In this document: piece by piece, positions 19,972 to 36,668 of the stretch | Layout of the letters: the number at the start of each line of letters is the position of its first letter | Numbering within the stretch: the first letter of the stretch is position 1 | Source of the DNA: Mycobacterium sp. | Lineage (GTDB): Bacteria > Actinomycetota > Actinomycetes > Mycobacteriales > Mycobacteriaceae | Assembly (NCBI RefSeq): GCF_025965855.1 | Contig: NZ_JAOPWB010000075.1 | Span: 1-39,641 of the forward strand | Length of the DNA: 39,641 bases | Reading direction: 5' to 3' | The notes under the pieces: model-generated | What the model saw: only the letters and a program-made list of their open reading frames with translations | What the model was told of the DNA's origin: nothing | Databases searched by the model: none | Made by a program: the position numbers and the translations under genes

Positions 19972-20102
19972 CGTCTACCCGGCCTCTCTCCGCCGATACG
20001 GTTACCCATACAGTAGGCAATACGATTGGTACGGGGTATAAGTTAGCAAGGAAACGCTGACGACGGAAATACCCTGGCGGAACCCGGCGAGAAGAGGAAC
20101 GC
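19972..20102. promoter_or_regulatory. Divergent promoter region of hydratase and thioesterase operons
   Basis: The 131-bp gap carries both divergent promoters and the dyad at 19997-20015. A second, weaker symmetric element, ATACGATTGGTACGGGGTAT (about 20020-20039), has matching ATAC/GTAT ends and may be a secondary operator. GGTATAAG could provide a -10 for the plus-strand genes. Promoter assignment is inferred. Confidence 0.5.
19997..20015 (-). promoter_or_regulatory. 19-bp dyad operator candidate, site A
   Basis: On the minus strand the site reads TACTGTATGGGTAACCGTA. It shares TACTGTA at the left and GTA at the right, with identical spacing, with three other intergenic sites in the window (22769, 25540, 36650). 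It sits 26 bp before the start of the six-gene run at 19971 and 88 bp before the thioesterase operon. A TetR-type operator is the likely reading. Confidence 0.7.
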
Positions 20103-20786
20103 ATGGTTGAGCGCGCAGCAGCCTCGCCGCTCGCCGGCGACGCCAAATTCGGCGAGGCGCCCCTCGCGCAGACGGTGGCGGCGGCGACCGCCATGCGGCG
20201 CCTGAGCTCACTGCTGGTATCTCTCGAGCACCCGCACCCCAGCGTGGACATCATGCTCGCGAAGTTCGCCGAGTGGGAAGGCGAGTTGGCCGCCGCGGCC
20301 CCGGCGGACAACGCACCGCGAATCGGCGAGATCGCCGACGATCCCCGGCGCGTCTACCTCAACCACGCCACCGACATCGGCGCCTACAACCCCTGCTTTC
20401 CCGAATACCGGTTCGACCAGCTCGATGCCGAAAAGGCCGGCGGTGTTGTGTGCTTCCCGCTGGTCTACGAGGGGCCGCCGGGACTGGTGCACGGCGGTTT
20501 CCTCGGCGTCTTCTTCGACTCCGTGATCCAGCACCACAACTGCGTCACCGGCTTTTCCGGCAAGACCCGGTCCTTGCTAGTCAGCTTCCGCCGGCCCACG
20601 CCGGTGCTGACCGACCTGCGCTTCGACATAGTTCGCTCGCAAGTCGAACGGGGCATCGCGTCGACGGCGCGGCTGCTGCTCGACGACGAAGTGCTGTGCA
20701 AAGGCGAGGTCAACACGTTGGCGTCGCCGCCCGAGACCCTGACCGGATTCAAGTTCGGCAGGCGGCGAAGGGAGTCCGATAGATGA
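20103..20786 (+). CDS. Hotdog-fold acyl-CoA thioesterase (PaaI/THEM4-like)
   Basis: The 227-residue protein has a C-terminal hotdog domain. VYEGPPGLVHGGFLGVFFDS carries the typical HGG turn at the active-site helix, followed by TRSLLVSFRRPTPVLTDLRF. This family hydrolyses acyl-CoA thioesters. The N-terminal 90 residues are alpha-helical and not assignable. The ATG at 20103 follows GAAGAGG. Its stop overlaps the next start (ATGA). It may release an inhibitory or dead-end CoA ester of the pathway; that is inference. Confidence 0.88.
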   Translation: MVERAAASPLAGDAKFGEAPLAQTVAAATAMRRLSSLLVSLEHPHPSVDIMLAKFAEWEGELAAAAPADNAPRIGEIADDPRRVYLNHATDIGAYNPCFPEYRFDQLDAEKAGGVVCFPLVYEGPPGLVHGGFLGVFFDSVIQHHNCVTGFSGKTRSLLVSFRRPTPVLTDLRFDIVRSQVERGIASTARLLLDDEVLCKGEVNTLASPPETLTGFKFGRRRRESDR

Positions 20787-21688
20787 GCGCCTCCGGCGTT
20801 TCGGACGACCGCGTGCTCTTTGACGTCGACCGCGACCGGCGCATCGCGACGATCACGCTGAACAACTCCGAGCAACGCAACTCCTATGACGCCACGATGC
20901 GCGAGGCCGTCGCCCGCTGCCTGGACCACGTGGCCGACGACGACGACCTCACGGTGGTGCTGTTGCGGGGAGCCGAGGGAGTCTTTTCCACCGGAGCCGA
21001 CATGAACAACGCGTACGGCTGGTACGGCGACGAGACCAAGGCGTCCGATGACGCGGCGGCCAAGCGCCGGCCCAGTCAGCGCAGACGACTTACCGTGGAC
21101 CGCAAGTCGTTTGGCTTCTACCACAACTTTATGGGCTTCCCGAAGGTAACGGTGGGGGAGATCGCCGGCTACGCACTCGGCGGCGGCTTCGAGATCGCGT
21201 TGATGACCGACATCTCGGTCATCGCGCGGGACACGAAGATCGGCATGCCGGCAACCCGCTTCCTCGGCCCGGCCCTCGGCAGCCTGCACATGTTCTTCCA
21301 CCGGCTGGGACCGGTGCTGGCCCGGCGTCTGCTGTTGACCGGTGACATCATCGAGGCCGGTGAGATCGAGCATCTCGGAATCTTCACCGACACATGCGAT
21401 CCCGGCGCGGTTACGGCGCGGGCGCGGTACTGGGCCGAGAAGGCGGCGAAGATGCCCGCCGACGGAGTCGTCATTGCCAAGGAAGCGTTCCGCCTTGTCG
21501 AGCAGACCCAGGCGTACCACGGCGAGGAAGTCGCGAGCTACCTTTTTCACGCCTTCGGCACCAACCTGCAATTCGCACCGGGCGAATTCAACTTCGTCAA
21601 AGCGCGCGCACAGCATGGTGCGAAGGAAGCGTTCCGGCTACGTGACGAGCATTTCCACGTGGGGGAGCCCCCGGAAACGCAAGCGTAA
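20783..21688 (+). CDS. Enoyl-CoA hydratase/isomerase family protein with long insertion
   Basis: The 301-residue crotonase-fold protein has ATITLNNSEQRNSYDATM, GVFSTGADMNNAYGWYGDE and GEIAGYALGGGFEIALMTD, where the first catalytic glutamate is present. It is about 40 residues longer than usual, with an insertion of basic residues (KRRPSQRRRLTVDRKS) between the oxyanion loop and the core. It is coupled to the thioesterase by an ATGA overlap. Confidence 0.88.
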   Translation: MSASGVSDDRVLFDVDRDRRIATITLNNSEQRNSYDATMREAVARCLDHVADDDDLTVVLLRGAEGVFSTGADMNNAYGWYGDETKASDDAAAKRRPSQRRRLTVDRKSFGFYHNFMGFPKVTVGEIAGYALGGGFEIALMTDISVIARDTKIGMPATRFLGPALGSLHMFFHRLGPVLARRLLLTGDIIEAGEIEHLGIFTDTCDPGAVTARARYWAEKAAKMPADGVVIAKEAFRLVEQTQAYHGEEVASYLFHAFGTNLQFAPGEFNFVKARAQHGAKEAFRLRDEHFHVGEPPETQA

Positions 21689-21868
21689 TGGCCGCGTCAA
21701 TTTACCTCTGCCACACCAGATTCAACAGGCGAGAGAGCGACAATTTGCCCGCCTCCCAGCGACAGTTGGGGACGCCGCTCCGCATCTAACGGACTTGTCG
21801 CTGTGAGACGGGCACAAAGCATGTCCCCTCCGGCAGAGATCCATGTGGCGAATGTGACTTGACGGCAG

Positions 21869-22660
21869 TTACCGCGTCGCGGTCGCCTTGGTCCGCCCCC
21901 GCTGGACGGGCGACTTGGCGGCCTTGCGCTGCCGGGACGGCGCCGACTTGCCGCCTTTGCCGCCCTTCTCGATCAGACTGCCGGCGTGGTCGAGGATGCA
22001 GTCCAGGCCGAATTCGAAGTTGGTATCGTCGGGTGCCCCGATGCGGTGCCCCTGCCCGGTCACTTGGGCGATCAGCGGGGTGGTCGCCGGATCGATGGCC
22101 ACGGCGTCCTCGATGGCGCGCGGACCGCTGTCCGGAGTCTGGTTCTTCTCGTACAGCCGGTGTAGCACCACCGAACCGCGCACGTGCACCGAAACCGCCG
22201 AGTAGGTGTCGAAGGCATCCTCGGGGGATAGGCCGGCCTCCACCAGATTGGAGATCGCGCGCTCCATCTCCTGGGCGCCCAGCCGCGCCGCTTTCGGGCT
22301 GAGAGCGGCGCGAATCAGAATCAGGTCGCACAGAATTGGGTTGCCCATGAACGTCTTACGCATCGAGCGCGCATGGTTGCGCAACGTCTCGCGCCAGTCG
22401 CTGGCCTCGACGTAGGGAGTGGCGAACACGTACTTGCTCAGGGCGCGGTCCGTCATCGCGTTGAGCAGATCGTCCTTCTTGCGGAAGTACCAATAGATGC
22501 TGGTGACGCCCACGCCCAGGTGTTTGCCGAGTAGCGGCATGCTCAGGTTGTCTATGGATACTTGCTCCGCGAGTTCGAATGCGCCGCTGATGATGTCGTC
22601 GGGATTGATGGATCCGCGTTCGCGTCGTTGACGCTTATCAGCGGTTGCCTGCTTTGCCAC
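21869..22660 (-). CDS. TetR-family transcriptional regulator, candidate master regulator of the cluster
   Basis: The 263-residue protein has an N-terminal TetR helix-turn-helix: DDIISGAFELAEQVSIDNLS, then LLGKHLGVGVTSIYWYFRKK, where the recognition helix ends in the family hallmark YWYFRKKDDLL. The C-terminal ligand domain is followed by a basic tail of about 30 residues (KGGKGGKSAPSRQRKAAKSP) not typical of TetR and perhaps DNA- or RNA-contacting. GTG 22660 is chosen because GGAGGTG lies at perfect spacing; an ATG at 22678 lacks a site. It is divergent from the SDR at 22850 with dyad B between them, which suggests autoregulation. Confidence 0.92.
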   Translation of the reverse strand: MAKQATADKRQRRERGSINPDDIISGAFELAEQVSIDNLSMPLLGKHLGVGVTSIYWYFRKKDDLLNAMTDRALSKYVFATPYVEASDWRETLRNHARSMRKTFMGNPILCDLILIRAALSPKAARLGAQEMERAISNLVEAGLSPEDAFDTYSAVSVHVRGSVVLHRLYEKNQTPDSGPRAIEDAVAIDPATTPLIAQVTGQGHRIGAPDDTNFEFGLDCILDHAGSLIEKGGKGGKSAPSRQRKAAKSPVQRGRTKATATR

Positions 22661-22768
22661 TACGGGCACCTCCATCACGATCTAGCCGTGCCACCGGTAA
22701 ACTGGAATCTACCGGCAGTTCCTCTCTGACCTGCGTATACGCTTGCGTGTCGTCGCGTTTCCGTCTGC

Positions 22769-22787
22769 TACTGTAATACCTATCGTA
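22769..22787 (+). promoter_or_regulatory. 19-bp dyad operator candidate, site B
   Basis: The site TACTGTAATACCTATCGTA lies between the divergent TetR gene (109 bp away) and the SDR gene (62 bp away). The first nine bases equal those of the near-perfect palindrome at 36650-36668. TetR regulators commonly repress their own divergent promoter, so this is the best candidate for the cognate operator. Confidence 0.72.
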
Positions 22788-22849
22788 GGCTTTTTGGTAA
22801 AACCCCTGGACACGTGAAAACGAGGCTGGGGACTTAGCGGGACTAGGCC

Positions 22850-23647
22850 ATGGATCTAGGGCTGGCGAATGCCACGGCGGTGGTAGTCGGAGGAAGTCGC
22901 GGCATGGGCCTGGCGACGGCCCGCTGCCTTGCCGACGAGGGCGCCCGCGTCGCGGTGGTCGGCCGCAGCCGTGACGCGCTCGACTCCGCGGTGACGGATT
23001 TGAGCGGCCGCGGGAGCCCGGATGCGCTCGGGTTCGTCGCCGACGTCGGTGACGCCGGTGCGGTCGACAAGGTGTTCGCCGATCTCGGTGAGCGTTGGGA
23101 CGGCGAACTGAACGTGCTGATCAATACCGTCGGGCCCGGCGCGGCAGGCAGTTTCGAGGTTTTGAGCGATGAACAGTGGCACCGGGCCGTCGAAGACGGG
23201 GTCATGGGCATGGTGCGCTGCGTCCGTTCGGCACTTCCGCTGCTGCGCAAGGCGCACTGGGCGCGGATCGTCAACTTCTCTGCGCACTCGACTCAGCGAC
23301 AAAGCGTCATGCTGCCCGCCTACACGGCGGCCAAGTCGATGCTGACGAGCGTCTCGAAGAACCTGTCGCTGCTATTGGCCAAGGACGAGATTTTGGTCAA
23401 CGTGGTATCGCCGGGCAGCATCGCGTCCGAGTCGCTGGTCGGCTGGGCGAAGTCCGTCGGCGTCGACGGCAGCGACCCCTACGCGCTGATGGACGCCATT
23501 GCCAAGCATTTCGGTCATCCCGCGCAAATGCCCCGGGCGGGCCTGCCGGAAGAGATCGGGCCGGTCGCCGCCTTTCTGGCGTCGCGGCGCAACTCGTACA
23601 TGACCGGAGCGAACATCAACGTCGACGGTGGTTCGGACTTCACCTGA
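22850..23647 (+). CDS. SDR-family oxidoreductase
   Basis: The 265-residue protein has the cofactor loop VVGGSRGMGLATAR, NTVGPGAAGSF in place of the NNAG motif, IVNFSAHSTQ with the catalytic serine, YTAAK with the Tyr/Lys pair, and a closing NINVDGGSDFT. It probably oxidises or reduces an alcohol or ketone intermediate with NAD(P)H. It is divergent from the TetR gene, with the DapA-type gene 34 bp downstream in the same direction. Confidence 0.9.
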   Translation: MDLGLANATAVVVGGSRGMGLATARCLADEGARVAVVGRSRDALDSAVTDLSGRGSPDALGFVADVGDAGAVDKVFADLGERWDGELNVLINTVGPGAAGSFEVLSDEQWHRAVEDGVMGMVRCVRSALPLLRKAHWARIVNFSAHSTQRQSVMLPAYTAAKSMLTSVSKNLSLLLAKDEILVNVVSPGSIASESLVGWAKSVGVDGSDPYALMDAIAKHFGHPAQMPRAGLPEEIGPVAAFLASRRNSYMTGANINVDGGSDFT

Positions 23648-23681
23648 CTCGAAATCGTTTGGCCGACAGAAGGAGTGAACA

Positions 23682-24690
23682 GTGGCGACGGCTGGCGAGG
23701 CACGCGTTTGGGCGCGAGGGGCGTTGCGGGGAATCGGCGACTCCCTCTACACGCCGTTCTGCGGCACCGACGGTGATGACATCGACTGGGACGCCTATCG
23801 GACGTTGGTGCGCTACTGCGTCGGCGACCTTGGACACCCGATGTTGTGGTGCACCAGCGGCATCGCCGAGTTCTGGTCGTTGACCATCGACGAGCGAAAG
23901 CGCTTGCTGGAGGTGGCAATCGAGGAGGCGCGCAGACTGAATCCGGACGTCGTTGTGCAGGCCTGCACAGCGGCGACGTCGGCGAAGGACGGTTTGGAAT
24001 TGACACTGCACGCCCAGGCGGCGGGCGCCGACATCGCCTATATCCAAACGCCGATGATGGAGGCCCACGGTGGCGAGGGCGTGCTGAGGTTCTTCAAGTA
24101 CATCGCCGCGCGCACCGATATCGCGCTGGGGATGTTCAACTCCCCGTCCTCGGGGCTACGTGTTGACTCCGGTCGAAAGCGCGCGGATCTATGACGAGGT
24201 GCCCGCGGTGTGCGCCACCAAGGAGGGCGCCTTCCGGCCGGAGGCGAGTCGGCGGCTGCACGAGCTGGCGCCTGGCCTGGCGGTCTGGGAATGCGACAGG
24301 ACCGTGTACCGCGCCGGATGGTTGCGTGCCGGTATCGTCTGCCCGGCGCAATTGGGCACGGCCGGGTACCTGTTCGAGACCCCGCAGCGGCGCCTGTTTT
24401 CCGAGTACTGGGATCTCGTGCTGAGTGACAAGCTCCTCGAGGCGATGGACTACGGCCGCGAATCCGGGATGGACCAGTTCGACCTCGACGTCGGATCGTG
24501 GTGGACGTGCTATCCGGGGCGCCCGGATTACTTCACCCACTGGGGTGGTGCTTTCAAATACGCCGCCTCACTGCTGGGGCTGCCGATCGGTGACTATCCG
24601 CATTCCCGGCCGCCGCAAGCGGAGCTGCCGGCTGAGGCGAAGGCCCAGATCGAGAGGGCCTACCGGCGGCTCGGGCTCATCGCGGCATAG
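23682..24690 (+). pseudogene. DapA-family aldolase/lyase gene with a single-base frameshift
   Basis: The GTG start at 23682 follows AGGAG. The product is a dihydrodipicolinate-synthase-like TIM barrel that makes or breaks C-C bonds beside a carbonyl through a Schiff base. The first frame runs to ALGMFNSPSSG. One extra G in the GGGG at 24152-24155 then shifts the frame; removing it restores YVLTPVESARIYDEVPAV and the match continues to TAG 24690. The Schiff-base lysine is in VCATKEGAF. The usual YNxP tyrosine is a phenylalanine (FNSP). The gene is 336 codons plus one base, so it is full-length apart from the insertion, which may be a real mutation or a sequence error. Confidence 0.82.
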
Positions 24691-25539: not shown

Positions 25540-25558
25540 TACCGATAGGTATACAGTA
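25540..25558 (-). promoter_or_regulatory. 19-bp dyad operator candidate, site C
   Basis: On the minus strand the site reads TACTGTATACCTATCGGTA. Its core differs from site B mainly by a one-base shift (TACCTATCG is shared). It lies 54 bp upstream of the start of the six-gene operon at 25613. The TACTGT half points away from that operon, so it is unlikely to be only a -10 box. Confidence 0.7.
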
Positions 25559-25612: not shown

Positions 25613-26455
25613 ATGTCCGGCAGCGACGGTGCTTCCGAAGATGCGGTGCTCTACGAGGCCACGGCGAGCGGCGTTGCGATCCTCACCTTCAACCGCCCGG
25701 ATCGCCTGAACGCCTGGGGTCCCGACATCGCCGCCGGGTTCTACGCAGGGATCGACCGAGCCGAAGCGGACCCGGACATCCGGGTGATCGTGGTGACCGG
25801 CCGGGGCAAGGGATTCTGCGCCGGTGCGTATCTGGGGGCGCGGAGTTCGGCAGCCACCTACGGCAAGACCATGGAGAAGGCGCGTCAGACGGACCTGGCC
25901 GCGTTGGTCGGCGAACGCCCGCCTCATTTCGTGACCACGGTGCGCAAGCCCGTCATCGCGGCCGTCAACGGTTCCTGCGTCGGCATCGGTCTGACCCAGG
26001 CGCTGATGTGCGATGTCCGCTTCGCGGCCGCCGGGGCCAAGTTCGCCGCCGTGTTCGCCCGCCGCGGGCTGATCGCCGAATTCGGCATCTCCTGGATACT
26101 TCCGCGCCTGACCACCTGGGGAGTCGCGCTCGACCTGTTGTTGAGCGGGCGCACCTTCCTCGCCGAGGAAGCGGCAGAACTCGGCCTCGTCAAAGAAGTC
26201 GTCGCGCCCGAAGATCTGATGAGCCGCGCCCTGGAATACGCGGAGGACATCGCGCGCAACTGCTCGCCGGCTTCGATGGCGGTGATCAAACGGCAGGTAT
26301 ACGGCGACGCCACTCGCGATGTCGTAGAAGCCACGTCGCGTGCCGAGGTCCTGCTGCACGAGGCGATGCCGCGCCCGGACGTCATCGAAGGGATCACCAG
26401 CTTCCTCGAGAAGCGGCCGCCGCAATTCCCTTCGCTCACTTCAACCGACGTTTGA
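25613..26455 (+). CDS. Enoyl-CoA hydratase/isomerase family protein, first gene of the right-hand operon
   Basis: The 280-residue crotonase-fold protein starts at ATG 25613 after GGAGG; GTG 25601 is possible. AILTFNRPDRLNAWGPDI and GFCAGAYLGARSS are the substrate and oxyanion segments. The aspartate usual in CAGAD is a tyrosine here. AVNGSCVGIGLTQALMCDVR lacks the first catalytic glutamate, but LIAEFGISWILPRLT keeps one at the second site. The reaction is therefore uncertain. It heads a run of six plus-strand genes to 32432. Confidence 0.9.
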   Translation: MSGSDGASEDAVLYEATASGVAILTFNRPDRLNAWGPDIAAGFYAGIDRAEADPDIRVIVVTGRGKGFCAGAYLGARSSAATYGKTMEKARQTDLAALVGERPPHFVTTVRKPVIAAVNGSCVGIGLTQALMCDVRFAAAGAKFAAVFARRGLIAEFGISWILPRLTTWGVALDLLLSGRTFLAEEAAELGLVKEVVAPEDLMSRALEYAEDIARNCSPASMAVIKRQVYGDATRDVVEATSRAEVLLHEAMPRPDVIEGITSFLEKRPPQFPSLTSTDV

Positions 26456-26484
26456 TCTTGCCGGTGGTACCGGAAAGGATGGTC

Positions 26485-27687
26485 ATGGCTACCTTGGATT
26501 ACAAGGCGATCGACGTCGACAATCACTATTACGAGCCGTTGGATGCCTTCACCCGCCACTTGGACAAGAGGTTCAAGCGCCGCGGCGTGCAGATGGTCAC
26601 CGACGGCAAGCGCACCTGGGCCGTGATCGGGGACCGCGTCAACCACTTCATCCCCAACCCCACCTTCGACCCGATCATCGTGCCGGGCTGCCTTGACTTG
26701 TTGTTCCGCGGCGAGATTCCCGAAGGTGTCGATCCGGCCTCGCTGATGAAAGTCGAGCGGCTGGCCAACCACCCCGAGTACCAGAACCGCGATGCGCGGG
26801 TCGCGGTGATGGACAGCCAGGACATCGAGACGGGGTTCATGCTGCCGACGTTCGCGTGCGGCGTCGAGGAGGCGCTCAAGCATGACATCGAGGCGACGAT
26901 CGCGTCGGTGCACGCATTCAACCTGTGGCTCGACGAGGACTGGGGCTTCGACCGGCCCGATCACCGAATCGTTGCCGCGCCGATCATTTCGCTGGCCGAT
27001 CCTGCCGCGGCGCTCGACGAGGTCGAGTTTGTGTTGGCACGCGGCGCCAGGCTGGTGCTGGTACGGCCGGCGCCGGTGCCCGGTGTAGCCAAGCCGAGGT
27101 CGCTGGGCGATCCCAGTCACGACCCGGTGTGGGCCCGGCTGGCCGAGGCGGGCGTACCGGTGGGCTTCCACCTCAGCGACAGTGGATATGTGCACATTGC
27201 GGCGCAGTGGGGAGGCAAGGCGACGTTCGAGGGGTTCGGCGAAAAGGATCCGCTGGAGCAGGTACTCCTCGACGACCGCGCCATCCACGACACGATGGCA
27301 TCGATGATCGTGCACGGCGTATTCACCCGTCATCCGAAACTCAGGGCGGTCAGCATCGAAAACGGCTCGTACTTCGTGCACCGGCTGATCAAGCGCCTGA
27401 AGAAGGCGGCCAACATTTATCCGCGGCATTTTCCCGAGGATCCGGTGGAGCAGTTGCGCAACAATGTCTGGATCGCGCCCTACTACGAGGACGATCTGCC
27501 GGAGCTGGCCGACGCTATCGGCATCGATAAGATCCTGTTCGGTTCCGACTGGCCGCACGGCGAAGGCCTCGAGTCGCCGCTGTCGTTTTGCGAAGAGCTC
27601 GCAGATTTCAGCGATTCGGATATCCGAAAAATCATGCGCGACAACGCTCTAGACCTGCTCGGTGTCCAAGTCGGATCGGTCGCTTGA
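26485..27687 (+). CDS. Amidohydrolase 2 family metal-dependent hydrolase/decarboxylase (first of two)
   Basis: The 400-residue protein belongs to the amidohydrolase_2 TIM-barrel family, which includes ACMSD- and gamma-resorcylate-type decarboxylases. It starts at ATG 26485 behind GAAAGGA; an ATG 6 bp upstream is possible. The N-terminal metal motif reads DVDNHYYEP rather than HxH. Later sites are VGFHLSDSGYVH, AVSIENGSYFVHRL and ILFGSDWPHGEG with the final metal aspartate. Such proteins in mycobacterial fadD/fadE clusters are usually uncharacterised. C-C bond hydrolysis or decarboxylation of a CoA ester or acid is plausible. Confidence 0.88.
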   Translation: MATLDYKAIDVDNHYYEPLDAFTRHLDKRFKRRGVQMVTDGKRTWAVIGDRVNHFIPNPTFDPIIVPGCLDLLFRGEIPEGVDPASLMKVERLANHPEYQNRDARVAVMDSQDIETGFMLPTFACGVEEALKHDIEATIASVHAFNLWLDEDWGFDRPDHRIVAAPIISLADPAAALDEVEFVLARGARLVLVRPAPVPGVAKPRSLGDPSHDPVWARLAEAGVPVGFHLSDSGYVHIAAQWGGKATFEGFGEKDPLEQVLLDDRAIHDTMASMIVHGVFTRHPKLRAVSIENGSYFVHRLIKRLKKAANIYPRHFPEDPVEQLRNNVWIAPYYEDDLPELADAIGIDKILFGSDWPHGEGLESPLSFCEELADFSDSDIRKIMRDNALDLLGVQVGSVA

Positions 27688-27709
27688 TTATTCGAGGCTG
27701 GTTGCGCTA

Positions 27710-29329
27710 GTGAGCGAATGGACCGTAGGCGCAGTTCTTGACGCCATCGCCGACGTCATCCCGGACCGTCTGATGACCGTCTGCGGAAACCGCCGAAGCA
27801 CGTTTGCCGAATCGGCCGGCCGCACCGACAGGCTCGCAAATTACCTCAGCGGCAAGGGGTTCGGGGCCTACGCCGAGCGCGCGACGCTCGAACCCTGGGA
27901 ATGCGGACAAGACCGGGTCGCGCTCATCATGTACAACGACCTGTACCCCGACATGGTGATCGGATGCCTCAAGGCGCGCACCATCCCGGTCAACGTGAAC
28001 CACCACTACTCGCCACGCGAAATCGCCGACCTCCTCGACTACGTGCGGCCGCGGGGAATCATCTATCACCGATCTCTCGGCGCCCGGTTCGCCGACGTGC
28101 TGCCCCCCGCCGGGACGGAGCTACTGGTGTCCATCGACGACGGAAGCGGCGCACCCGAACTGCCGGGCGCGGTGTCGCTGGACGACGCCTCGGCGGCCGG
28201 CGGCACGGGCTTTCCCCCGGTGGGGTCGCCGGACGACCTGATCATGATGTGTACCGGCGGAACGACGGGACGCCCCAAGGGGGTCCTGTGGCGTCAGAGC
28301 GACATGTACGTGTCGTCGATGGTGGGTGCCGACCACGCGAGCGTCACCGAGATCCACGACAAGGTGCGTAACGGAGGCCCGCCGTGGTTCGCGGTTTCGC
28401 CGCTGATGCACGCGGCCGGCATGTGGACCGCGTTCGCGGCGCTTTGCGCGGGCCTGCTGGTCGTGCTCTACGACGACCGCAACAAGCTCGACGTACGGTC
28501 GGTGTGGGAAACCGCCGAGCGCGAAAAGGTGGGCATGATGACGATGGTCGGCGACGCCTACGCCGGGCCGCTGATCGCCGAACTGCGCGCCCACCGCTAC
28601 GACTTGTCCTCGCTCAACGCCATCGGCACCGGCGGAGCCGCCACCAACGCGAAATACAAACGGGCACTGATGGAATGCCTCCCGCACATCACCATCATCG
28701 AGGGCTACGGATCCTCGGAGAGCGGCAACATGGCGTTCGGGCACAGCCGCGACGGGACCGCGAGCGAAACCTTCGAACCCAGGGCCGGCGCCTCCGTCAT
28801 ATCCGCCGACCGGAGCCGGTTCCTGCGCCCCGGTGACCAGGAGATCGGGTGGGCCGCCAGGACCGGCCGGATTCCGCTGGGGTACTACAACGATGCCGAG
28901 GCCACCCGACGGACCTTCACGCAGGTCGAGGGTCAGCGGGTGGTGATACCGGGCGACCGGGCATCCGTTGAGAAAGACGGCACCATCCGCCTTTTCGGCC
29001 GGGACTCGCTGGTCGTCAACACCGGCGGCGAAAAGGTCTTCGTCGAGGAGGTCGAGGAGGTGCTGCGCGCACACCCGGGCGTCGCCGACGCCCTGGTGGT
29101 GGGACGGCCAAGCGAGCGGTGGGGCCAGGAAGTCGTCGCGCTCGTCGCGCCACACCCGGGCACCGACCTGAGCGCCGACGAGCGTGCCCTCTATACCTTC
29201 TGCATCTCGCAGCTGGCGCATTTCAAGGCGCCCAAGGCGTTCATCTTCGTCGAACAGATTCAGCGTCTCGGCAACGGCAAGCCCAACTATCGGTGGGCCC
29301 GAGAACAAGCCGAAGAGAAGGTGTCATGA
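27710..29329 (+). CDS. Acyl-CoA synthetase (FadD family, FadD17/FadD19-like)
   Basis: The 539-residue ANL protein has MMCTGGTTGRPKGVLWRQSD (phosphate loop), the MLxH-like FAVSPLMHAAGMW, IEGYGSSESGNMAFGHS, GDRASVEKDGTIRLFGRDSL and GNGKPNYRWA with the A10 lysine. TGGTTGxPKGVLWRQ resembles mycobacterial steroid-side-chain synthetases such as FadD19. GTG 27710 is chosen because it starts after the previous stop; an in-frame GTG at 27662 would overlap it by 26 bp. A similar protein lies at 38068-39641. Its stop overlaps the second amidohydrolase start (ATGA). Confidence 0.9.
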   Translation: MSEWTVGAVLDAIADVIPDRLMTVCGNRRSTFAESAGRTDRLANYLSGKGFGAYAERATLEPWECGQDRVALIMYNDLYPDMVIGCLKARTIPVNVNHHYSPREIADLLDYVRPRGIIYHRSLGARFADVLPPAGTELLVSIDDGSGAPELPGAVSLDDASAAGGTGFPPVGSPDDLIMMCTGGTTGRPKGVLWRQSDMYVSSMVGADHASVTEIHDKVRNGGPPWFAVSPLMHAAGMWTAFAALCAGLLVVLYDDRNKLDVRSVWETAEREKVGMMTMVGDAYAGPLIAELRAHRYDLSSLNAIGTGGAATNAKYKRALMECLPHITIIEGYGSSESGNMAFGHSRDGTASETFEPRAGASVISADRSRFLRPGDQEIGWAARTGRIPLGYYNDAEATRRTFTQVEGQRVVIPGDRASVEKDGTIRLFGRDSLVVNTGGEKVFVEEVEEVLRAHPGVADALVVGRPSERWGQEVVALVAPHPGTDLSADERALYTFCISQLAHFKAPKAFIFVEQIQRLGNGKPNYRWAREQAEEKVS

Positions 29330-30156
29330 ACACCAAAGCGATTGACTGCCTGATAAATGTGCACTTCGGCGAGGCCGAATCCCAGCCCACCTGGATGCTC
29401 AAAGTCCGGGACGATTACTTCAAGGGCCCGGAGTCGATGTTCGCACCGGTCGACCTGTCGGAGCTGCTCGACGAGATGGACTCCCACGGCGTGCAGAAGG
29501 CGATCCTGATGGACTCGATGGCCGGCCCGTCCACCACCGCGCGCAAGTTCATCGAAGCCAGGCCGGACCGGTTCGCCCTGGCGATGGGTGGGATCAACCT
29601 GCTGCGTCCGGTGCGGTCGTTGCGCGAGTTGACGGCTATCGTGGGCGACCTGCCGGTGGCGTATGCGGTAGTGGGACCGAGCTTTTGGGGCGACGGGCAG
29701 TACCCGCCCAGCGACGCCGTCTACTACCCGCTCTACGCCAAATGCGCGGAGCTCTACCTCCCGCTGTGCATCAACACCGGCATCCCGGGGCCACCGATTC
29801 CCGGAGAGGTGCAGCATCCCATGCACCTGGATCGGGTGTGCGTGCGTTTTCCCGAGCTGAAGCTGTGCATGATCCACGGCGCCGACCCGTGGTGGGATGT
29901 CGCGATTCGGTTGCTGCTCAAGTACGCCAACTTGCGGCTGATGACCTCGGCGTGGTCACCCAAGCGGCTGCCGGACAGCCTGCTGCACTACATGCGGACG
30001 CGTGGCCCGGACAAGGTGATCTACGCGTCGGACTGGCCGGTGCTGCGCATGCGCCGAGTGATACCCGAAGCGCGTGCGCTGGACCTGCCCCCAGAGGTGC
30101 TGGACAACTACCTCTACAACAACGCTCAGGAATTCTTCTTCGGACGGGAGCACTGA
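29326..30156 (+). CDS. Amidohydrolase 2 family protein, short, with altered metal motif (second of two)
   Basis: The 276-residue protein has AIDCLINVHFGE at the N-terminus, where family members usually have DxHxH. LCINTGIPGPPIPGE, LCMIHGADPWWDV and VIYASDWPVLRM mark the remaining TIM-barrel strands, with the last metal aspartate kept. Only part of the metal set is visible, so it may bind one metal or act as a partner of the longer amidohydrolase encoded three kilobases upstream. It is coupled to the synthetase by an ATGA overlap. Confidence 0.85.
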   Translation: MNTKAIDCLINVHFGEAESQPTWMLKVRDDYFKGPESMFAPVDLSELLDEMDSHGVQKAILMDSMAGPSTTARKFIEARPDRFALAMGGINLLRPVRSLRELTAIVGDLPVAYAVVGPSFWGDGQYPPSDAVYYPLYAKCAELYLPLCINTGIPGPPIPGEVQHPMHLDRVCVRFPELKLCMIHGADPWWDVAIRLLLKYANLRLMTSAWSPKRLPDSLLHYMRTRGPDKVIYASDWPVLRMRRVIPEARALDLPPEVLDNYLYNNAQEFFFGREH

Positions 30157-30158
30157 CC

Positions 30159-31217
30159 ATGGACCGCTTCGAACTGCGCCGACTCGACTACAGCCTGTCC
30201 GGGGATCACGTCGCGTTGCAGAATGCCTACAAGCAATTCTTCAAGACCCATTGCTCGATCGAAACGGTCCGCGCCGCAGAACCGTCCGGCTTCGACAAGA
30301 ACCTGTGGGAGCGGCTGTGCGCGATGGGCGCGACCACGATGGCCCTGCCGGAGTCCTGCGGCGGTGACGGTGCGACGCTGGTCGATCTCACCCTGGTGGC
30401 CGAGGAGACCGGCCGGTCGCTGGCCCCGGTCCCGTGGATCGACCACGTGTGCGCCGCGCGGTTGCTCGGGCGCCTGGGAGGACTGGACGCCGACGCCGCC
30501 GGTGTGGCCAACGGTGAACAGGTCGCCGGACTCGATGCCCGCATCGACAGTCCGCCGGGCGTCCGGCTGATTCCGACGGGAGCGATCGCCGACCACATCA
30601 TCGTGCGTGACGGCGATGAGCTCGTCCGCCTGACGTTCGGGACCCGGCCGGCCAAGGTCGACAACATCGGCCGGTTGCCGATGGCCTGGGTGGACCCGGC
30701 CGCCGCGGACACCCGCACGGTCATCGGCCAGGGCCCCGATGCGGTGACGAGTTACCAACGGGCCCTGGATGAATGGCGGCTACTGACCGCGGCGGCCCTG
30801 GTGGGTCTGGTCGAGGAGACGATGACCATCGCGGCGGAGTTCGCCAAGACCCGCTACACGCTGGGCGTGCCGATCTCGACGCTGCAGGCCATCTCGCACC
30901 CGCTGGCGAACATGGCCATCACCGTCCAGGGCGGGCGTAACCTCGCCCGCCGGGCCGCCTGGTTCCTCGACAACGAACCCGACGAGCGACGCGAGCTGGC
31001 GCCGTCGGCCTTCGTCTTCATGGCCGAGGAGGCCGCCAAGGCGGCGACGATGGCGGTGCACATCCAAGGCGGCCTCGGGGTTTCCTCCGAAGCCGCGGCC
31101 ACGGCGTATCTGGTGCGCGCCAGGGGATGGCCGCTGGCCGGCGGCGACCCCGGCGCCACCGCCCTGCGCGTCGCCGAGATCGTCGCGGCCCGCGAGAACA
31201 CACCACAGCCCGCGTAG
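30159..31217 (+). CDS. Acyl-CoA dehydrogenase-like small subunit
   Basis: The 352-residue protein has the acyl-CoA dehydrogenase fold but is short and lacks the EGTSE catalytic segment; its C-terminus is IQGGLGVSSEAAATAYLVRA. EFAKTRYTLGVPISTLQAISH is the conserved helical stretch. Mycobacterial heteromeric dehydrogenases such as FadE28-FadE29 pair one subunit of this kind with a longer partner, and a longer gene follows 15 bp downstream. Together they probably form an alpha2beta2 enzyme acting on a bulky acyl-CoA. It starts 2 bp after the previous stop. Confidence 0.85.
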   Translation: MDRFELRRLDYSLSGDHVALQNAYKQFFKTHCSIETVRAAEPSGFDKNLWERLCAMGATTMALPESCGGDGATLVDLTLVAEETGRSLAPVPWIDHVCAARLLGRLGGLDADAAGVANGEQVAGLDARIDSPPGVRLIPTGAIADHIIVRDGDELVRLTFGTRPAKVDNIGRLPMAWVDPAAADTRTVIGQGPDAVTSYQRALDEWRLLTAAALVGLVEETMTIAAEFAKTRYTLGVPISTLQAISHPLANMAITVQGGRNLARRAAWFLDNEPDERRELAPSAFVFMAEEAAKAATMAVHIQGGLGVSSEAAATAYLVRARGWPLAGGDPGATALRVAEIVAARENTPQPA

Positions 31218-31232
31218 GACTGGAGCGAAACG

Positions 31233-32432
31233 ATGGACTTCTCCCGAGTCGAGCTGACCGAGGAAGATCAGGCCTTCCTCGAGGAGTCGCGGAATTTCCT
31301 GAGCACCCACATGACCGAAGAGGTCAGGCGTCGCGACCGCGAGACCGGCGACAACTTCGACGAGGGACTGCACCTGAAGTTCGGCGCCGCAGGCTATTTG
31401 GAGGCCGAGTGGAAGCCGGAGTCCGAGGGTGGGTTCACCCGGGTCCGCCGCCGCATCTGGGAGCTGGAGAAGCGGCGGGTGCACGTGCCCTGGGTGACAT
31501 GGGGCACCACCGCCATGGTGGCGCGCTCGGTGGCGAAGTTCGGCTCACCGGAACTGTGTGAGGAGGTGCTGCCAAAGGTCTTCAGCGGCGAGGTCCGGCT
31601 CTGCCTTGGCTACACCGAGCCCGAAGGCGGCTCTGACGTCGCCACCTGCAAGACCCGCGCGGTGCGGGAGGCGGATGGATCCAGCTGGGTCATTAACGGC
31701 TCCAAGATGTTCACCACCGGCGCGCACAACTGCCAGTACGTGTTCCTGATCACCAACACCGCCCCGGAGGCGCCGAAGCACAAGAGCCTGACCATGTTTC
31801 TGGTTCCGCTGGATTTGCCGGGCGTCGATATCCAGGGCATCCGCACGGTGGACGGCGACCGGACCAACATCGTCTACTACACCGACGTTCGCGTCGACGA
31901 CAAGTACCGGCTGGGGGACGTGAACGCCGGCTGGACCGTGCTGCGCGAGCCGCTCAACGTCGAGCACGGTGCGGTTGCGGCGGCGCGCGACGGGCTGCAG
32001 GACACCTCAATCATGATGCACCAGGCGGGATTCATGTCGGAGGCCGTCGACAAGGCCGCGGCGCGCGTGGCCCGGCCCGGCCCCGACGGGCACCGGTTGA
32101 TCGACGACAAATCCGTCGCCTACCGCTTGGGCCGCAGCGCCGCCCGGGTGGAGATTGCGCTGTCGTCCCCGAGCATCTTCGGCCGGGTCGCCATCGCACA
32201 AACCATGCGGGACATCTCCCCGGATCTGATGGACATCCTCGGGGCCGCCTCGGCCTTACCGCCCGGCGCCGATGGCGCCGAGGCCGCCGACGACGGCAGC
32301 GCCGAGTACGCCTACCGGTTCGCTCCCTTGGTGGGTATCTACGGTGGCACGCTCGAGGTGTTCCGCAACATGATCGGCCAATACACGCTCGGGCTGGGCA
32401 AGCCGAACTACTCACCGCCGAAAGCTTCCTGA
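31233..32432 (+). CDS. Acyl-CoA dehydrogenase-like large subunit
   Basis: The 399-residue protein has LGYTEPEGGSDVATCKTRAV, FTTGAHNCQYVFLIT, GWTVLREPLNVEHGAV and a C-terminal GIYGGTLEVFRNMIGQYTLG in place of EGTSE. This GGTxEVxRNxI ending is typical of the larger partner in heteromeric dehydrogenases. A remnant at 37048-37161 has nearly the same ending, so a paralogue once lay there. ATG 31233 follows TGGAGCG. It is the last gene before the hairpin at 32442. Confidence 0.88.
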   Translation: MDFSRVELTEEDQAFLEESRNFLSTHMTEEVRRRDRETGDNFDEGLHLKFGAAGYLEAEWKPESEGGFTRVRRRIWELEKRRVHVPWVTWGTTAMVARSVAKFGSPELCEEVLPKVFSGEVRLCLGYTEPEGGSDVATCKTRAVREADGSSWVINGSKMFTTGAHNCQYVFLITNTAPEAPKHKSLTMFLVPLDLPGVDIQGIRTVDGDRTNIVYYTDVRVDDKYRLGDVNAGWTVLREPLNVEHGAVAAARDGLQDTSIMMHQAGFMSEAVDKAAARVARPGPDGHRLIDDKSVAYRLGRSAARVEIALSSPSIFGRVAIAQTMRDISPDLMDILGAASALPPGADGAEAADDGSAEYAYRFAPLVGIYGGTLEVFRNMIGQYTLGLGKPNYSPPKAS

Positions 32433-32441: not shown

Positions 32442-32490
32442 CGTGTAACCGCTGCGACCGGCGTCGGCGTGTCGTCGCAGCGATTACACG
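32442..32490. terminator. Strong hairpin terminator between convergent genes
   Basis: CGTGTAACCGCTGCGAC (32442-32458) pairs with GTCGCAGCGATTACACG (32474-32490) in a 17-bp stem with one mismatch around a 15-nt loop. It begins 10 bp after the dehydrogenase stop and lies just beyond the end of the minus-strand genes. It probably ends transcription from both sides. Confidence 0.82.
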
Positions 32491-32495
32491 CTCGG

Positions 32496-32615
32496 TCAAG
32501 AGGTGGGGCCGGTTCTCGGCCAGTGGGCGGTGACGGCCTTCCCGGCGCCGATGCCGGTAAGGGACCGGACCTCCATCTCGGCGTTGCGCACCGGCTCACC
32601 GCGTAGGTCAATCAC
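32496..32615 (-). CDS. Small coupled ORF, 39 residues, unknown
   Basis: GTG 32615 overlaps the TGA of the upstream NAD(P)-binding protein gene (GTGA), the arrangement of translationally coupled genes. The peptide reads MIDLRGEPVRNAEMEVRSLT and ends AHWPRTGPTS. It has no signal peptide or membrane segment and I do not recognise it. The amino-acid use looks coding, and it may be the 5' or 3' remainder of a longer gene lost before the terminator at 32490. It could also be chance. Confidence 0.4.
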   Translation of the reverse strand: MIDLRGEPVRNAEMEVRSLTGIGAGKAVTAHWPRTGPTS

Positions 32616-33331
32616 GACGCCGCGGCATTCGTCGCGTGCGCGTCGCTCTTGAAGGCCTCGCGCCGGACCATTTCCCACACCGTCGGCGTGTGCTCCGTTG
32701 TCGAGACGACAACGGTCTGCCGCCTTGCCATCCCGTCTTGCGCAAGTTTGACGAGGTAGTCCGCCAGGTCGATGCGGGCCGTGAATGCGCCTACCGGATC
32801 AATTTCTCCCGCAACATAATTCGTACGCTGAGGCAAATCGAATAATCCCGACGGGCGCACGATCGTCCAGTCCAGGTCGCTTTCGCGCACCAACCCTTCC
32901 ATCCGCCGGATATCGTCGTACACGGTCTTGCCAATGGTGCGGGTGATGATCGGCTCGACGAGCCGTAACGCCAGCGGCGTATGGCGCCGGCCGGGCGCGG
33001 GGTAGGCGCCGATGGAACTGACCACGACAAGCCGGTTGACGCCGGACTCGCGCATCGCGGTCACGACATTGCGGGTGCCGACGGAATACGTGTCGACCGG
33101 CTGGCGGGTGAACGGCACACCGAGCGTCGATAGCACGGCGTCGGCGCCCGCGACGATCCCGGCGAGGCCGTCGCGCAGCACGTCCGCGCCTGCGACGGTC
33201 AGCCGCACGTCGGAGATGGGGAACTCGTCGGGCCGCCGGGTCACGGCCACAGCCGAGTGACCGGCGTCGAGCACCCGACGCGTCAGCAGCCGTCCGGTCA
33301 ATCCGTTGGCGCCGAAGATCACGATTTGCAT
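32612..33331 (-). CDS. Atypical SDR / NmrA-like NAD(P)-binding protein
   Basis: The 239-residue protein starts MQIVIFGANGLTGRLLTRRV, with the GxxGxxG loop. It contains ADAVLSTLGVPFTRQPVDTY, VNRLVVVSSIGAYPAP and a WTIVRPSGLFDLP segment, the usual pattern of NAD(P)H-binding atypical SDRs. These often reduce flavins or quinones or sense redox state. The start follows GGAGTCCTC at good spacing. It follows the membrane protein by 17 bp, so the two form an operon that reads toward the terminator. Confidence 0.88.
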   Translation of the reverse strand: MQIVIFGANGLTGRLLTRRVLDAGHSAVAVTRRPDEFPISDVRLTVAGADVLRDGLAGIVAGADAVLSTLGVPFTRQPVDTYSVGTRNVVTAMRESGVNRLVVVSSIGAYPAPGRRHTPLALRLVEPIITRTIGKTVYDDIRRMEGLVRESDLDWTIVRPSGLFDLPQRTNYVAGEIDPVGAFTARIDLADYLVKLAQDGMARRQTVVVSTTEHTPTVWEMVRREAFKSDAHATNAAAS

Positions 33332-33348
33332 GAGGACTCCTTCGATAG

Positions 33349-33780
33349 TTACCGGCGGCGGGTTGCCGTCGTGTACCGCCGGGGCAGGGCGGGGATCAGG
33401 ACCGCGGCGGCGACACAGTGCAACGCGGTCAACATGAGTTGGGTGCCTAGGTTCGCGGTCGTGAAGAACACCGGCACGATGGATAGCACGAGAACGACCA
33501 TGGTCAGCGCGATCCACACGCCCCGGGCGGATGAGGTGTACCGCTCCAGCAGGGCGATCACGATCCAGCCGGCCAGTCCCGCGGCCACGGTCGCGACGAT
33601 GGTCAGCGCGAGGGTGATTTGCCGGGTGCCGGTCGGCGTATCGACGATGTAATCGACGTCCGCCAACCGCCCCAGGAGCCACGCCAGACCTGTTGCCGCC
33701 GCGGCGATCCCGATCGCCACCACCCGGCCGGCGGGCCACCGGGCGTTGTGGACCGCCAGTTGCCCAGCCATATGCGACAT
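33349..33780 (-). CDS. Four-helix membrane protein (DUF6069-like)
   Basis: The 143-residue protein has four hydrophobic helices: VVAIGIAAAATGLAWLLGRL, ITLALTIVATVAAGLAGWIV, GVWIALTMVVLVLSIVPVFF and LMLTALHCVAAAVLIPAL. The arrangement resembles small actinobacterial membrane proteins of the DUF6069 type, whose function is unknown. ATG 33780 has AAAGGGA upstream and is chosen over an earlier start at 33816. It is co-directional with the NAD(P)-binding gene. Confidence 0.75.
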   Translation of the reverse strand: MSHMAGQLAVHNARWPAGRVVAIGIAAAATGLAWLLGRLADVDYIVDTPTGTRQITLALTIVATVAAGLAGWIVIALLERYTSSARGVWIALTMVVLVLSIVPVFFTTANLGTQLMLTALHCVAAAVLIPALPRRYTTATRRR

Positions 33781-34152
33781 CGCGAATTCCCTTTCGGCCA
33801 CCTGCTTTGCGGGCAAGGGCTTCTTGCCTGCCCGCTACTACGACGAAACGGGCCGGCCGAAAGTTACAGGTGCGGCGTCGCCGAACGTGCAGTCAGTGCG
33901 AGAAATCGGCGGTCGTTTCGCGCTGAGTACACGCTCGGCGAGGCTCAGGTGGTCGGGATCGTCGCGGCGGCGGTGCCGGGGGGCGAGCAGCGCTCCAGGG
34001 CGCGCACCAGCAGTGCTGACAGGGGTGCGGCGTTCTGCATCGTCGGCGGCCACGTACTGATCACGTGATCGGACGCGCTGAACCTTTCACCGAGTGGATC
34101 GTGTGGATCGATAAGCTCGTAATAGGCGCCGCTCACTTCTGGTCCGGCGCAT
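33781..34152. other. Non-coding stretch holding a thioesterase remnant
   Basis: This 372-bp gap between the membrane protein and the CoA-transferase holds the gene remnant at 33945-34136. Between 33781 and 33944 I see no gene; the promoter for the membrane protein operon probably lies there. No dyad of the TACTGTA type occurs in it. Confidence 0.55.
33945..34136 (-). pseudogene. 5' fragment of an acyl-CoA thioesterase-like gene
   Basis: Sixty-three codons from a GTG read MSGAYYELIDPHDPLGERFS, then PPTMQNAAPLSALLVRALER, before ending in a short unrelated tail. The segment looks like the N-terminus of mycobacterial TesB-like thioesterase-family proteins of about 260-280 residues, with the QxxAPxSALLVRALER region intact. 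The rest is absent, so this is a truncated copy. It starts 17 bp after the CoA-transferase gene and was probably its operon partner. Confidence 0.6.
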
Positions 34153-35379
34153 TCACGCGATGGCTCCCGACTCTTTGAGTTCGGCGATGCGGTCCCAGTC
34201 CATGCCGAGCTCCATCAAGACGATCTCGGTGTGCTCGGAGGCTTGCGGCGCGCGGGTTGTCACCAGCGGCTCATGGTTGAACTGTACCGGCCCACGCACC
34301 ACGCGGAATGGCTTTCCGCCGCTTGCTAGTTCGACCTCGGCGATCATGTCGTTGGCGATGGCCTGCTCGTCGTCGGTCAGGTCGATCAGGCTCTGGAACG
34401 GGGCCCACTGACCCTTCATCGTCTTCAGATGCCGGCGCCAGTACTCAAAAGGCTTGGCGGCGACGGCCTTCGCGATCAGCTCGGCGGCCGCGTCGGCGTT
34501 CTGGATCAGCGGGAGCACATCGGAGAAGCGGGGATCGTCGGCGGCCTCGGGGATGCCGAGGTGCTCGAAGGTGTCGCGGATGATTCCCGTCGGGCTGATG
34601 ATGCACAGGTTGATCGTGCCGCCGTCGGAGGTTTGGTAGTTGCCCATGAAGGGATTCACCGATGCCGCGAGGGAACCCGGCATGGACGTTCGCATGACCT
34701 CTCCGGTCTCCATGCCCTGCGTCACGCTGGCGCCCGCCGCCCACCAGGCCGTGCTCAGCAACGACACATCCATTTCGAGGGCCTCGCCGGTGCGCTCGCG
34801 GTGCAGCAACGCGGCCGAGATGCCGCCGGCGATGAACATGCCGCCGATGGAGTCGCCGAACGCCGGAATGCCTTGGCCCAGTGCGCCACCCAGCTCCTCC
34901 GGCGTCAGCGCGTACCCGACCCCGCTGCGCGTCCAGAACGCCGTCCCGTCGTAGCCGCCGACGTCACGCTCGGCTCCCTTGTCCCCGTAAGCCGAACCGC
35001 GGGCGTAGACGATGTTCGGGTTCACCGCGCGGAGGTGCTCGACGTCGAACTTGTGCTTCTGCCGCTGTGCGGGCATGTAGTTGGTCAGGAACACGTCGGA
35101 CGTCTTGGCCAGTTCGTAGATCACTTCCTGGCCGCCCGACGTGGAAACATCGATCCCGACGCTGCGCTTGCCCCGGTTGGGATGCTCCATCAGCGGGTGC
35201 CGGTCCGGGTCGACCTGGATGCCGCCCATGTTGAGGAAGCCGCGCTGGGTGTCGCCGCGCACCGGGTGCTCGACTTTGATGACGTCTGCGCCCCAGTCGG
35301 CGAGGATCGCCCCCGCTGCCGGGACGAACGTGAACTGCGCAAGCTCCAGGACCCGAAAGCCCGCCATTACCTTCACCAT
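34153..35379 (-). CDS. CaiB/BaiF family (class III) CoA-transferase, second copy
   Basis: The 408-residue protein shows AGFRVLELAQFTFVPAAGAI, WGADVIKVEHPVRGDTQRG, NRGKRSVGIDVSTSGGQEV and DVGGYDGTAFWTRSGVGYAL. PAFGDSIGGMFIAGGISAAL holds the expected active-site aspartate (GDS). It transfers CoA to a carboxylate, possibly the P450 product. ATG 35379 is chosen. The frame is open upstream into the P450 gene; a GTG at 35391 (overlapping the P450 stop) and an ATG at 35367 are alternatives. GGAGGA lies just before the chosen start. Confidence 0.9.
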   Translation of the reverse strand: MVKVMAGFRVLELAQFTFVPAAGAILADWGADVIKVEHPVRGDTQRGFLNMGGIQVDPDRHPLMEHPNRGKRSVGIDVSTSGGQEVIYELAKTSDVFLTNYMPAQRQKHKFDVEHLRAVNPNIVYARGSAYGDKGAERDVGGYDGTAFWTRSGVGYALTPEELGGALGQGIPAFGDSIGGMFIAGGISAALLHRERTGEALEMDVSLLSTAWWAAGASVTQGMETGEVMRTSMPGSLAASVNPFMGNYQTSDGGTINLCIISPTGIIRDTFEHLGIPEAADDPRFSDVLPLIQNADAAAELIAKAVAAKPFEYWRRHLKTMKGQWAPFQSLIDLTDDEQAIANDMIAEVELASGGKPFRVVRGPVQFNHEPLVTTRAPQASEHTEIVLMELGMDWDRIAELKESGAIA

Positions 35380-35390
35380 TTCCTCCGACA

Positions 35391-36599
35391 CTACTTCGCG
35401 TCGAACGTCACCGGAAGGGCTGTCGGCGAACGGAAGGGCTGGCCGTCGATGTGTGGATCGCCGTCGGACAGCAGGGTGACGTTGGTCAGCCGATTCAGCA
35501 GGCATTCGACCGCGACCCGGGTTTCCAGCCGCGCCAGGTGAAGACCCAGACAGGTGTGCTCGCCGGCGGCGAAGGAGATGTGCGGCATGTGCTTACGGAA
35601 GATGTCGAACTGTTCCGAACGTTCCCAGCGCCGCTCGTCGCGGTTCGCGGAACCGATGCACACGCCGATCACCGCGCGCGCCGGAATCTCGACTCCGTCG
35701 AGCTCGGTGTCTTCCGTCGTGAACCGCTGCACCGTGGTCAGCGGCGTCTCGAAGCGCAGCCCTTCCTCGATTGCCTGGCCGATGAGCTCGCGCTCGGCTT
35801 GCACCGCCGCGAACTGATCGGGGTGAGTGAGCAGCAGATACAGCAGGTTTCCCGACGACCGGTACGTGGTCTCCAGCCCGGCGGGCAGCAGCAGACGCAG
35901 GAAGGAGTAAATCGCCTCGTCGCTGAGCCTTTCGCCATCGATCTCGGCGGTGACCAGGTCGCCGATGATGTCCTCGGTGGGCTTGGACTTGCGCTGCTCG
36001 ATCTGCCCGACGAAGTAATCCTTCAGCGCCGCCGACGCCTCGAACGCGCGCTCGTAGTCGACGTGGTAGCTGATCAACTCAACGGCGCGCTTGCGAAACA
36101 CCGGCAGATCGTCGGCCGGCAGTCCCAGCAGTTGGGCGATGACGCGGGTGGGGACTTCGAAGGTGAATTGCCGGACCAGGTCGGCTTCGCCCGTGTCGAT
36201 GAACTCGTCAATCAGCGCGTTGCAGATCGGCCGCACGACGGTGTTCTCCCACCGGGCCAGGGCTTTGGACTTGAATGCCGCGGACACCAGGTTGCGATGG
36301 TCGCGATGCTTCTTTCCCTCCATCGCCAGAATGGTCGGCCCCATGAACAGGCCAATCGTCTTGTCGTACGGCGCGGAGCTGAAGATCCGGCCGTCGCGAA
36401 ACACCGCGTTCACCGCGTCGAACGAGACCGCGGAGTACTCGTTCTTGGGCAACAGTGACTCGGGCGTCTTGGAGTAGTCCATGACCGTCCCGCGGAACAC
36501 GCCGGCCTGCCGTCGCTTGTGAGCGAAGTACGGGTAGGGATCACGCAGGCTGACGGTCTCTTGGCCGGTTTGGGAGCCGGTCGAAACGTTGGTCGTCAC
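35391..36599 (-). CDS. Cytochrome P450
   Basis: The 402-residue soluble bacterial P450 has the heme-binding FAAGEHTCLGLHLAR with the thiolate at C350. The K-helix EEGLR (ExxR) is present, and the I-helix oxygen-activation site LPAGLETTYRS has a glutamate where aspartate is more common. It hydroxylates a hydrophobic substrate with O2 and electrons from a ferredoxin; no ferredoxin gene is adjacent. GTG 36599 follows GGAGAT. It heads the minus-strand operon with the CoA-transferase, and site D lies 51 bp upstream. Confidence 0.93.
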   Translation of the reverse strand: MTTNVSTGSQTGQETVSLRDPYPYFAHKRRQAGVFRGTVMDYSKTPESLLPKNEYSAVSFDAVNAVFRDGRIFSSAPYDKTIGLFMGPTILAMEGKKHRDHRNLVSAAFKSKALARWENTVVRPICNALIDEFIDTGEADLVRQFTFEVPTRVIAQLLGLPADDLPVFRKRAVELISYHVDYERAFEASAALKDYFVGQIEQRKSKPTEDIIGDLVTAEIDGERLSDEAIYSFLRLLLPAGLETTYRSSGNLLYLLLTHPDQFAAVQAERELIGQAIEEGLRFETPLTTVQRFTTEDTELDGVEIPARAVIGVCIGSANRDERRWERSEQFDIFRKHMPHISFAAGEHTCLGLHLARLETRVAVECLLNRLTNVTLLSDGDPHIDGQPFRSPTALPVTFDAK

Positions 36600-36649
36600 C
36601 TAGATCTCCAGCATCTTCAGCAGGAACAGGCTGTCGTTGCGTAAGATCG

Positions 36650-36668
36650 TACTGTAATTATTACAGTA
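36650..36668 (+). promoter_or_regulatory. 19-bp dyad operator candidate, site D (perfect palindrome)
   Basis: TACTGTAA-TTA-TTACAGTA is a perfect inverted repeat with 8-bp arms and a 3-bp centre. It lies between the P450 gene (51 bp from its start) and the aldehyde dehydrogenase remnant. It is the most symmetric of the four related sites and defines the consensus TACTGTAW-N8-GTA. Confidence 0.75.

Follow-up and report, generated by a model that had tools for sequence, protein, structure and literature searches.

We identified a 19-bp inverted repeat in four intergenic regions of contig NZ_JAOPWB010000075.1 from Mycobacterium sp. (assembly GCF_025965855.1). The whole contig stretch of 39,641 bp is referred to here as the window, and the four copies of the repeat as sites A, B, C and D (Table 1). 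The repeat is very probably the operator of the TetR-family regulator encoded in the same window, which would bind it and thereby repress both its own expression and the operons at A–D. A reading of this DNA made from the sequence alone had proposed such a regulon. All four 19-mers were located where it had placed them, each between genes, with start codons 25 to 90 bp away. The proposal was supported by the distribution of the motif, which tracked the TetR gene both inside and outside the genus.

The four sites compared with chance expectation

The consensus, TACTGTAA-N3-TTACAGTA, was derived from relatives, and sites were scored by the number of matches to its 16 arm letters. The best scores in the window were those of D (16/16), B and A (13) and C (12), together with a place at 4531 that also scored 12. 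Of 100 first-order Markov sequences of the window's length, a single one reached a maximum of 12, and the remaining 99 did not exceed 11. Random windows without the palindrome of site D scored 12 in 26 of 1691 cases and never higher. The pattern TACTGTAW-N8-GTA had five strand matches at four places in the window and none in 100 shuffles, and the four-site set is far beyond chance. When two mismatches were allowed, 14 strand matches were found in the window against a shuffle mean of 2.89; therefore loose versions of the motif do arise by chance.

Across the genome, which comprises 6.15 Mb in 362 contigs, TACTGTA-N9-GTA occurred at five places, four of them sites A–D and the fifth on contig C22, so that the exact form is not scattered. 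The reversed control had four matches in the same genome. The pattern originally suggested for such a scan runs to 20 letters by count, one N too many. The sequence-only reading had aligned the four sites without gaps from both ends. The ends do align in this way, although the alignment hides a one-base shift in the middle: measured from the dyad ends, the block CGATAGGTAT (reverse strand), common to sites B and C, falls at positions one base apart. Its placement of site B within tetR's own divergent promoter was confirmed, and that of site A needed correction, as A in fact sits between two divergent operons.

Conservation at orthologous promoters

Conservation was examined at 80 named loci, the best 80 of 287 relatives, picked by the TetR protein and not by the motif (79 titled Mycobacterium and one Mycolicibacterium). 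Sites A, B and C were counted when found within 250 bp of a neighbouring gene that had at least 55% identity, a match beginning in its first 40 residues and upstream DNA of 250 bp or more; loci without the neighbouring gene or the upstream DNA were excluded. Site A was exact in 62 of 69 loci, the remaining seven being variants of 1–3 bases. At tetR, site B was exact in 77 of 79 loci (55/56 when approached from the SDR gene), with one one-base variant and one locus without a site. Site C was exact in 55/72 loci; among its 17 misses, 11 were variants of 1–3 bases and six had no site.

Mean information within sites A–C, in site-anchored alignments, was 1.96–1.98 bits per position. The flanks had 0.52–0.97 bits, apart from the left flank of A with 1.51. 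The search itself fixed ten of the 19 positions (11 for C), and the remaining positions had 1.7–2.0 bits. Site D was examined in the 200 bp upstream of 30 loci, which were drawn from 60 sampled genomes on the similarity of their P450 proteins. Perfect arms preceded 26 of the 30 P450 orthologs; one further locus had 15 of the 16 letters and three had nothing. Both 8-bp arms were constant among the D orthologs and the spacer and flanks were variable, one of the two locus sets compared having been picked by motif. Two of the checks named in the sequence-only reading, the rarity of the exact motif elsewhere and its conservation at orthologous promoters, came out in its favour.

Co-occurrence with tetR

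Within the genus, 148 genomes were compared, our own included, and a tetR ortholog was called strong at E <= 1e-80. Such an ortholog was present in 113 genomes and lacking in 35. The strict pattern was found in 110/113 genomes with the ortholog and in 2/35 without it. Its matches numbered 587, against 115 for the reversed control, in the former group, and 2 against 33 in the latter. The perfect palindrome occurred in 86 of the 148 genomes, all 86 among the 113 with the ortholog, and its reversed control in a single one. The Fisher value for this co-occurrence overstates independence, because the sampled species are related.

Outside the genus, the pattern TACNGTA-N5-TACNGTA was sought in 24 genomes of a family sample: the 15 in which a homolog reached E <= 1e-30, and 9 of the 172 that had none. 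It was present in 10/11 genomes with a strong ortholog, 2/4 with a weak one and 0/9 without, and the reversed control was present in 3/24. In five genomes of other genera (G166, G191, G285, G290 and G261) a site lay upstream of the gene for the tetR homolog, at a distance of no more than about 200 bp. The exact 19-mer of site C was also seen upstream of the homolog in G290.

The TetR protein

The regulator matched PF00440, the N-terminal TetR helix-turn-helix (45.0 bits, cut-off 24), and PF02909, by sequence profile an all-helical C-terminal ligand domain (47.5 bits, cut-off 21). It did not reach the cut-offs for the tetracycline repressor TetR (NF010319, 78.1 vs 265 bits) or the mycofactocin regulator MftR2 (NF038211, 40.2 vs 285 bits). 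Its best sequence match among solved structures was the tetracycline repressor TetR, e.g. 5mru. The AlphaFold model, computed from 33 close sequences, was of low quality (mean pLDDT 50.2). All 23 homologs compared, the most distant of them with 37% identity, shared the core of the recognition region, TS(I/L)YW(Y/H)FR. A search of plasmids detected a Rhodococcus homolog with 40% identity in a different gene setting.

In several genomes, among them G020, G034, G049 and G065, a second TetR copy of 51–60% identity lay 15 to 30 kb away from the first. In G020 and G034 this second copy is preceded by the P450 ortholog, and a site was found close to the copy, before that P450 gene.

Proposed mechanism and alternative explanations

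We propose that a dimer of the TetR protein would bind TACTGTAA-N3-TTACAGTA and in this way silence tetR itself together with the operons at sites A–D. Because of the short distances between the sites in the window and the start codons, repression would likely come about by a block of RNA polymerase. By eye, TTG triplets can be made out close to A, C and D, spaced such that the operator would lie over or between promoter elements. A pathway substrate or a CoA-bound intermediate may release the protein; the acyl-CoAs named in the sequence-only reading are conjectural candidates.

Several observations weigh against this proposal. In each of sites A, B and C, one arm fits the consensus well and the other poorly (13, 13 and 12 of 16 overall), and the poor arm is kept as such across relatives, for which simple dimer binding does not account. 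The simplest readings of this asymmetry are graded affinity or an overlapping promoter element. A promoter scan found no consensus promoter at any of sites A–D. Counts across related species are not independent. A site scoring at least 12/16 was found within 330 bp upstream of the homolog's own gene for only 7 of the 23 homologs, leaving 16 without. Four genomes (G050, G088, G092 and G147) with homologs of 44–46% identity and a near-identical helix-turn-helix had no strict match, and one genome of another genus (G177) had the ortholog and no match. Within the genus, G055 and G075 each had one match and no strong tetR ortholog. Conversely, G026, G041 and G070 had the ortholog and no strict match, G041 possessing a B-like variant upstream. 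With three mismatches allowed, seven places were found in our own genome and five with the reversed control; an isolated weak site is therefore uncertain and may be due to chance.

The sites could instead be conserved promoter elements of a shared sigma factor. The mycobacterial -10 box has the form TANNNT, which both TACTGT and TACAGT fit; the sites are close to start codons, and the flanks beside A are conserved as well. We nevertheless consider this very improbable, given the constant arms and variable spacer and flanks of the D orthologs, the near-restriction of the strict pattern to genomes with the tetR ortholog and the null result of the promoter scan. A plain -10 box, already thought a poor explanation in the sequence-only reading, was rejected because D orthologs retain both arms and the motif follows one tetR gene. 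The orientation of site C, invoked in that reading, need not be considered, since an inverted repeat has no direction.

Another regulator might bind the sites, such as the GntR-type protein encoded at 11875-12567 or a LuxR-type protein on contig C22, whose genes are in or near the cluster. The location of site B in the tetR promoter, and of a site just upstream of the tetR homolog in the five genomes of other genera, makes this very improbable as well. Finally, the TetR protein could bind the sites as an activator or a mixed regulator. The conserved asymmetry of A–C is of a kind that might arise where contacts with the polymerase matter, and sites A and B serve divergent promoters. Positions near start codons suit repression, however, and members of the TetR family are described in PMC4482099 as often repressors. 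Activation or mixed regulation is unlikely, and repression by the TetR protein is the explanation we prefer.

Further sites in and beyond the window

The sequence-only reading had noticed the motif nowhere else between genes. This holds for the exact form, of which the window has no fifth copy, and fails for weaker forms: a conserved intergenic site lies at 4531-4549, outside the interval covered by that reading. A score of at least 11 was found upstream of 18 of 20 orthologs of the gene behind it, picked by protein and including our own. This site is a probable further operator.

Contig C22 abuts the right end of the window. By blastn to two relatives, window base 39641 is joined to C22 base 69024 across a 6-bp gap. 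Site E, which is the fifth exact match of the genome, and a further site, F, were located on C22, and site F recurred with small changes in both relatives examined. Copies with three mismatches preceded P450 genes on contigs C199 and C302, the C302 P450 being 57% identical to that of the window, and one more such match was found on C331. As the same repeat precedes them, the genes at E and F, the two further P450 genes and the gene at 4589 behind the weaker site likely belong to the same regulon.

In relatives, perfect palindromes were also found before flavin monooxygenase-like, aldehyde dehydrogenase and luciferase-like genes. In G031, G046, G132 and G143 a strict match preceded a thiolase gene that lies beyond the cluster (Pfam assignment on one of them). 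The sequence before the thiolase gene in relatives was TACTGTATAGGCAATAGTA or a one-base variant. This gene is a possible distant member of the regulon.

Genes behind the sites

The sites and the genes behind them are listed in Table 1. The thioesterase-like protein had no Pfam match; it matched 2ov9, a hypothetical protein, and more weakly members of the thioesterase superfamily. The presence of P450s, a Rieske oxygenase, acyl-CoA ligases, hydratases, dehydrogenases, a CoA-transferase and a carboxylase among the encoded proteins suggests the breakdown of a cyclic or branched lipid, for example a terpenoid or steroid-like acid.

Two other coding stretches of the window were noted. A DHDPS-like stretch at 23682-24690 is apparently split over two frames, of which 23682-24194 matched PF00701 and 24160-24690 had no match. 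A gluconolactonase/SMP-30-like gene at 37161-37998 is also split over two frames, and blastn against the two relatives matched nothing in this stretch.

Table 1. Sites of the inverted repeat and associated genes. Positions are those of the window unless a contig is given; distances are to gene starts.
Feature	Position	Strand	Sequence or basis	Context
Site A	19997-20015	-	TACTGTATGGGTAACCGTA	Between divergent operons; 25 bp to 19971 (-), 87 bp to 20103 (+)
Site B	22769-22787	+	TACTGTAATACCTATCGTA	Between tetR (-) and SDR gene (+); 90 bp to 22678 (-), 62 bp to 22850 (+)
Site C	25540-25558	-	TACTGTATACCTATCGGTA	54 bp before gene at 25613 (+)
Site D	36650-36668	both	TACTGTAATTATTACAGTA	Perfect palindrome; 50 bp before P450 gene at 36599 (-)
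Weaker site	4531-4549	+	TGCGGTATGCCTTACAGTT	12/16; intergenic, 39 bp before ATG at 4589
Site E	C22:66679		TACTGTAACGGACTTAGTA	25 bp before KshA-like Rieske oxygenase gene; also faces SnoaL-like gene
Site F	C22:61882		TACAGTAAGCAATTCAGTA	Between luciferase-like/P450 operon and acyl-CoA carboxylase gene
TetR-family regulator gene	21869-22678	-	PF00440, PF02909	269 aa as called; start possibly slightly later
Three enoyl-CoA hydratase-family genes, then three AMP-binding acyl-CoA ligase genes	12996-19971	-	Profiles	Six-gene run behind site A
Thioesterase-like (20103-20786) and hydratase-family (ECH_1) genes	20103-21688	+	Sequence match / profile	Behind site A, other side
SDR oxidoreductase gene	22850-23647	+	Profile	Behind site B
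Hydratase, amidohydrolase, acyl-CoA ligase, amidohydrolase and two acyl-CoA dehydrogenase genes	25613-32432	+	Profiles	Six-gene operon behind site C
Cytochrome P450 and family III CoA-transferase genes	34153-36599	-	Profiles	Behind site D
Phosphotransferase-like (APH/EcKL) gene	4589-5491	+	Pfam PF01636, PF02958	Behind weaker site; relatives' matches begin near ATG 4589

Comparison with known systems

Assignment of a putative regulator and target list to this large orphan cluster of oxygenase and beta-oxidation-type genes opens a direct route to the substrate, by way of the ligand that would release one protein from one 19-bp sequence. The rule used for scanning genomes also singles out further P450 genes that likely serve the same pathway.

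The arms of the repeat resemble the TACTGTA...TACAGTA arms of the LexA SOS box of E. coli. The E. coli box is CTG-N10-CAG in 20 bp, and the mycobacterial SOS box is another sequence. LexA was rejected on spacing, as site D is CTG-N9-CAG in 19 bp; the recurrent palindrome of the 86 genomes was sought and found at the N9 spacing, no search being made for the N10 form. The targets here are, moreover, catabolic genes. The tetracycline repressor TetR (NF010319, 5mru) shares the domain pair PF00440 and PF02909 with the present protein and differs in controlling an efflux pump, whereas catabolic operons are the predicted targets here. The tetO sequence also differs from the present operator.

Palindromic operators of mycobacterial TetR regulators were predicted from conserved divergent promoters by Balhana and others (PMC4482099). 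Table 2 of that paper gives 30 regulators under M. tuberculosis gene numbers, and the motif of one of them may be the present one. Among the literature matches listed, judged by title, there was no report of the present operator.

Close parallels are KstR and KstR2, TetR-type repressors of mycobacterial cholesterol use (PMC3068626). Like these systems, the present one combines a TetR-type protein and a predicted palindromic operator with several lipid-catabolic operons containing P450, ligase and beta-oxidation-type genes. It differs in that the protein lies in another cluster and carries PF02909. The operators of KstR and KstR2 are other, shorter palindromes. Tentatively, and with somewhat more doubt than confidence, we suggest that most of the sampled mycobacteria possess an unnamed catabolic regulon, comparable in rank to those of KstR and KstR2 for cholesterol. 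In it, one TetR-type repressor with its own 19-bp operator would control several P450s, the KshA-like Rieske oxygenase and, in relatives, the flavin monooxygenase-like gene, the aldehyde dehydrogenase and the out-of-cluster thiolase, all for the use of one cyclic terpenoid- or steroid-like nutrient. The general picture of how TetR-type regulators work is unchanged. TetR repressors that control neighbouring catabolic operons through a palindromic operator are well known in mycobacteria, and what is new is the predicted operator and the reach of the regulon.

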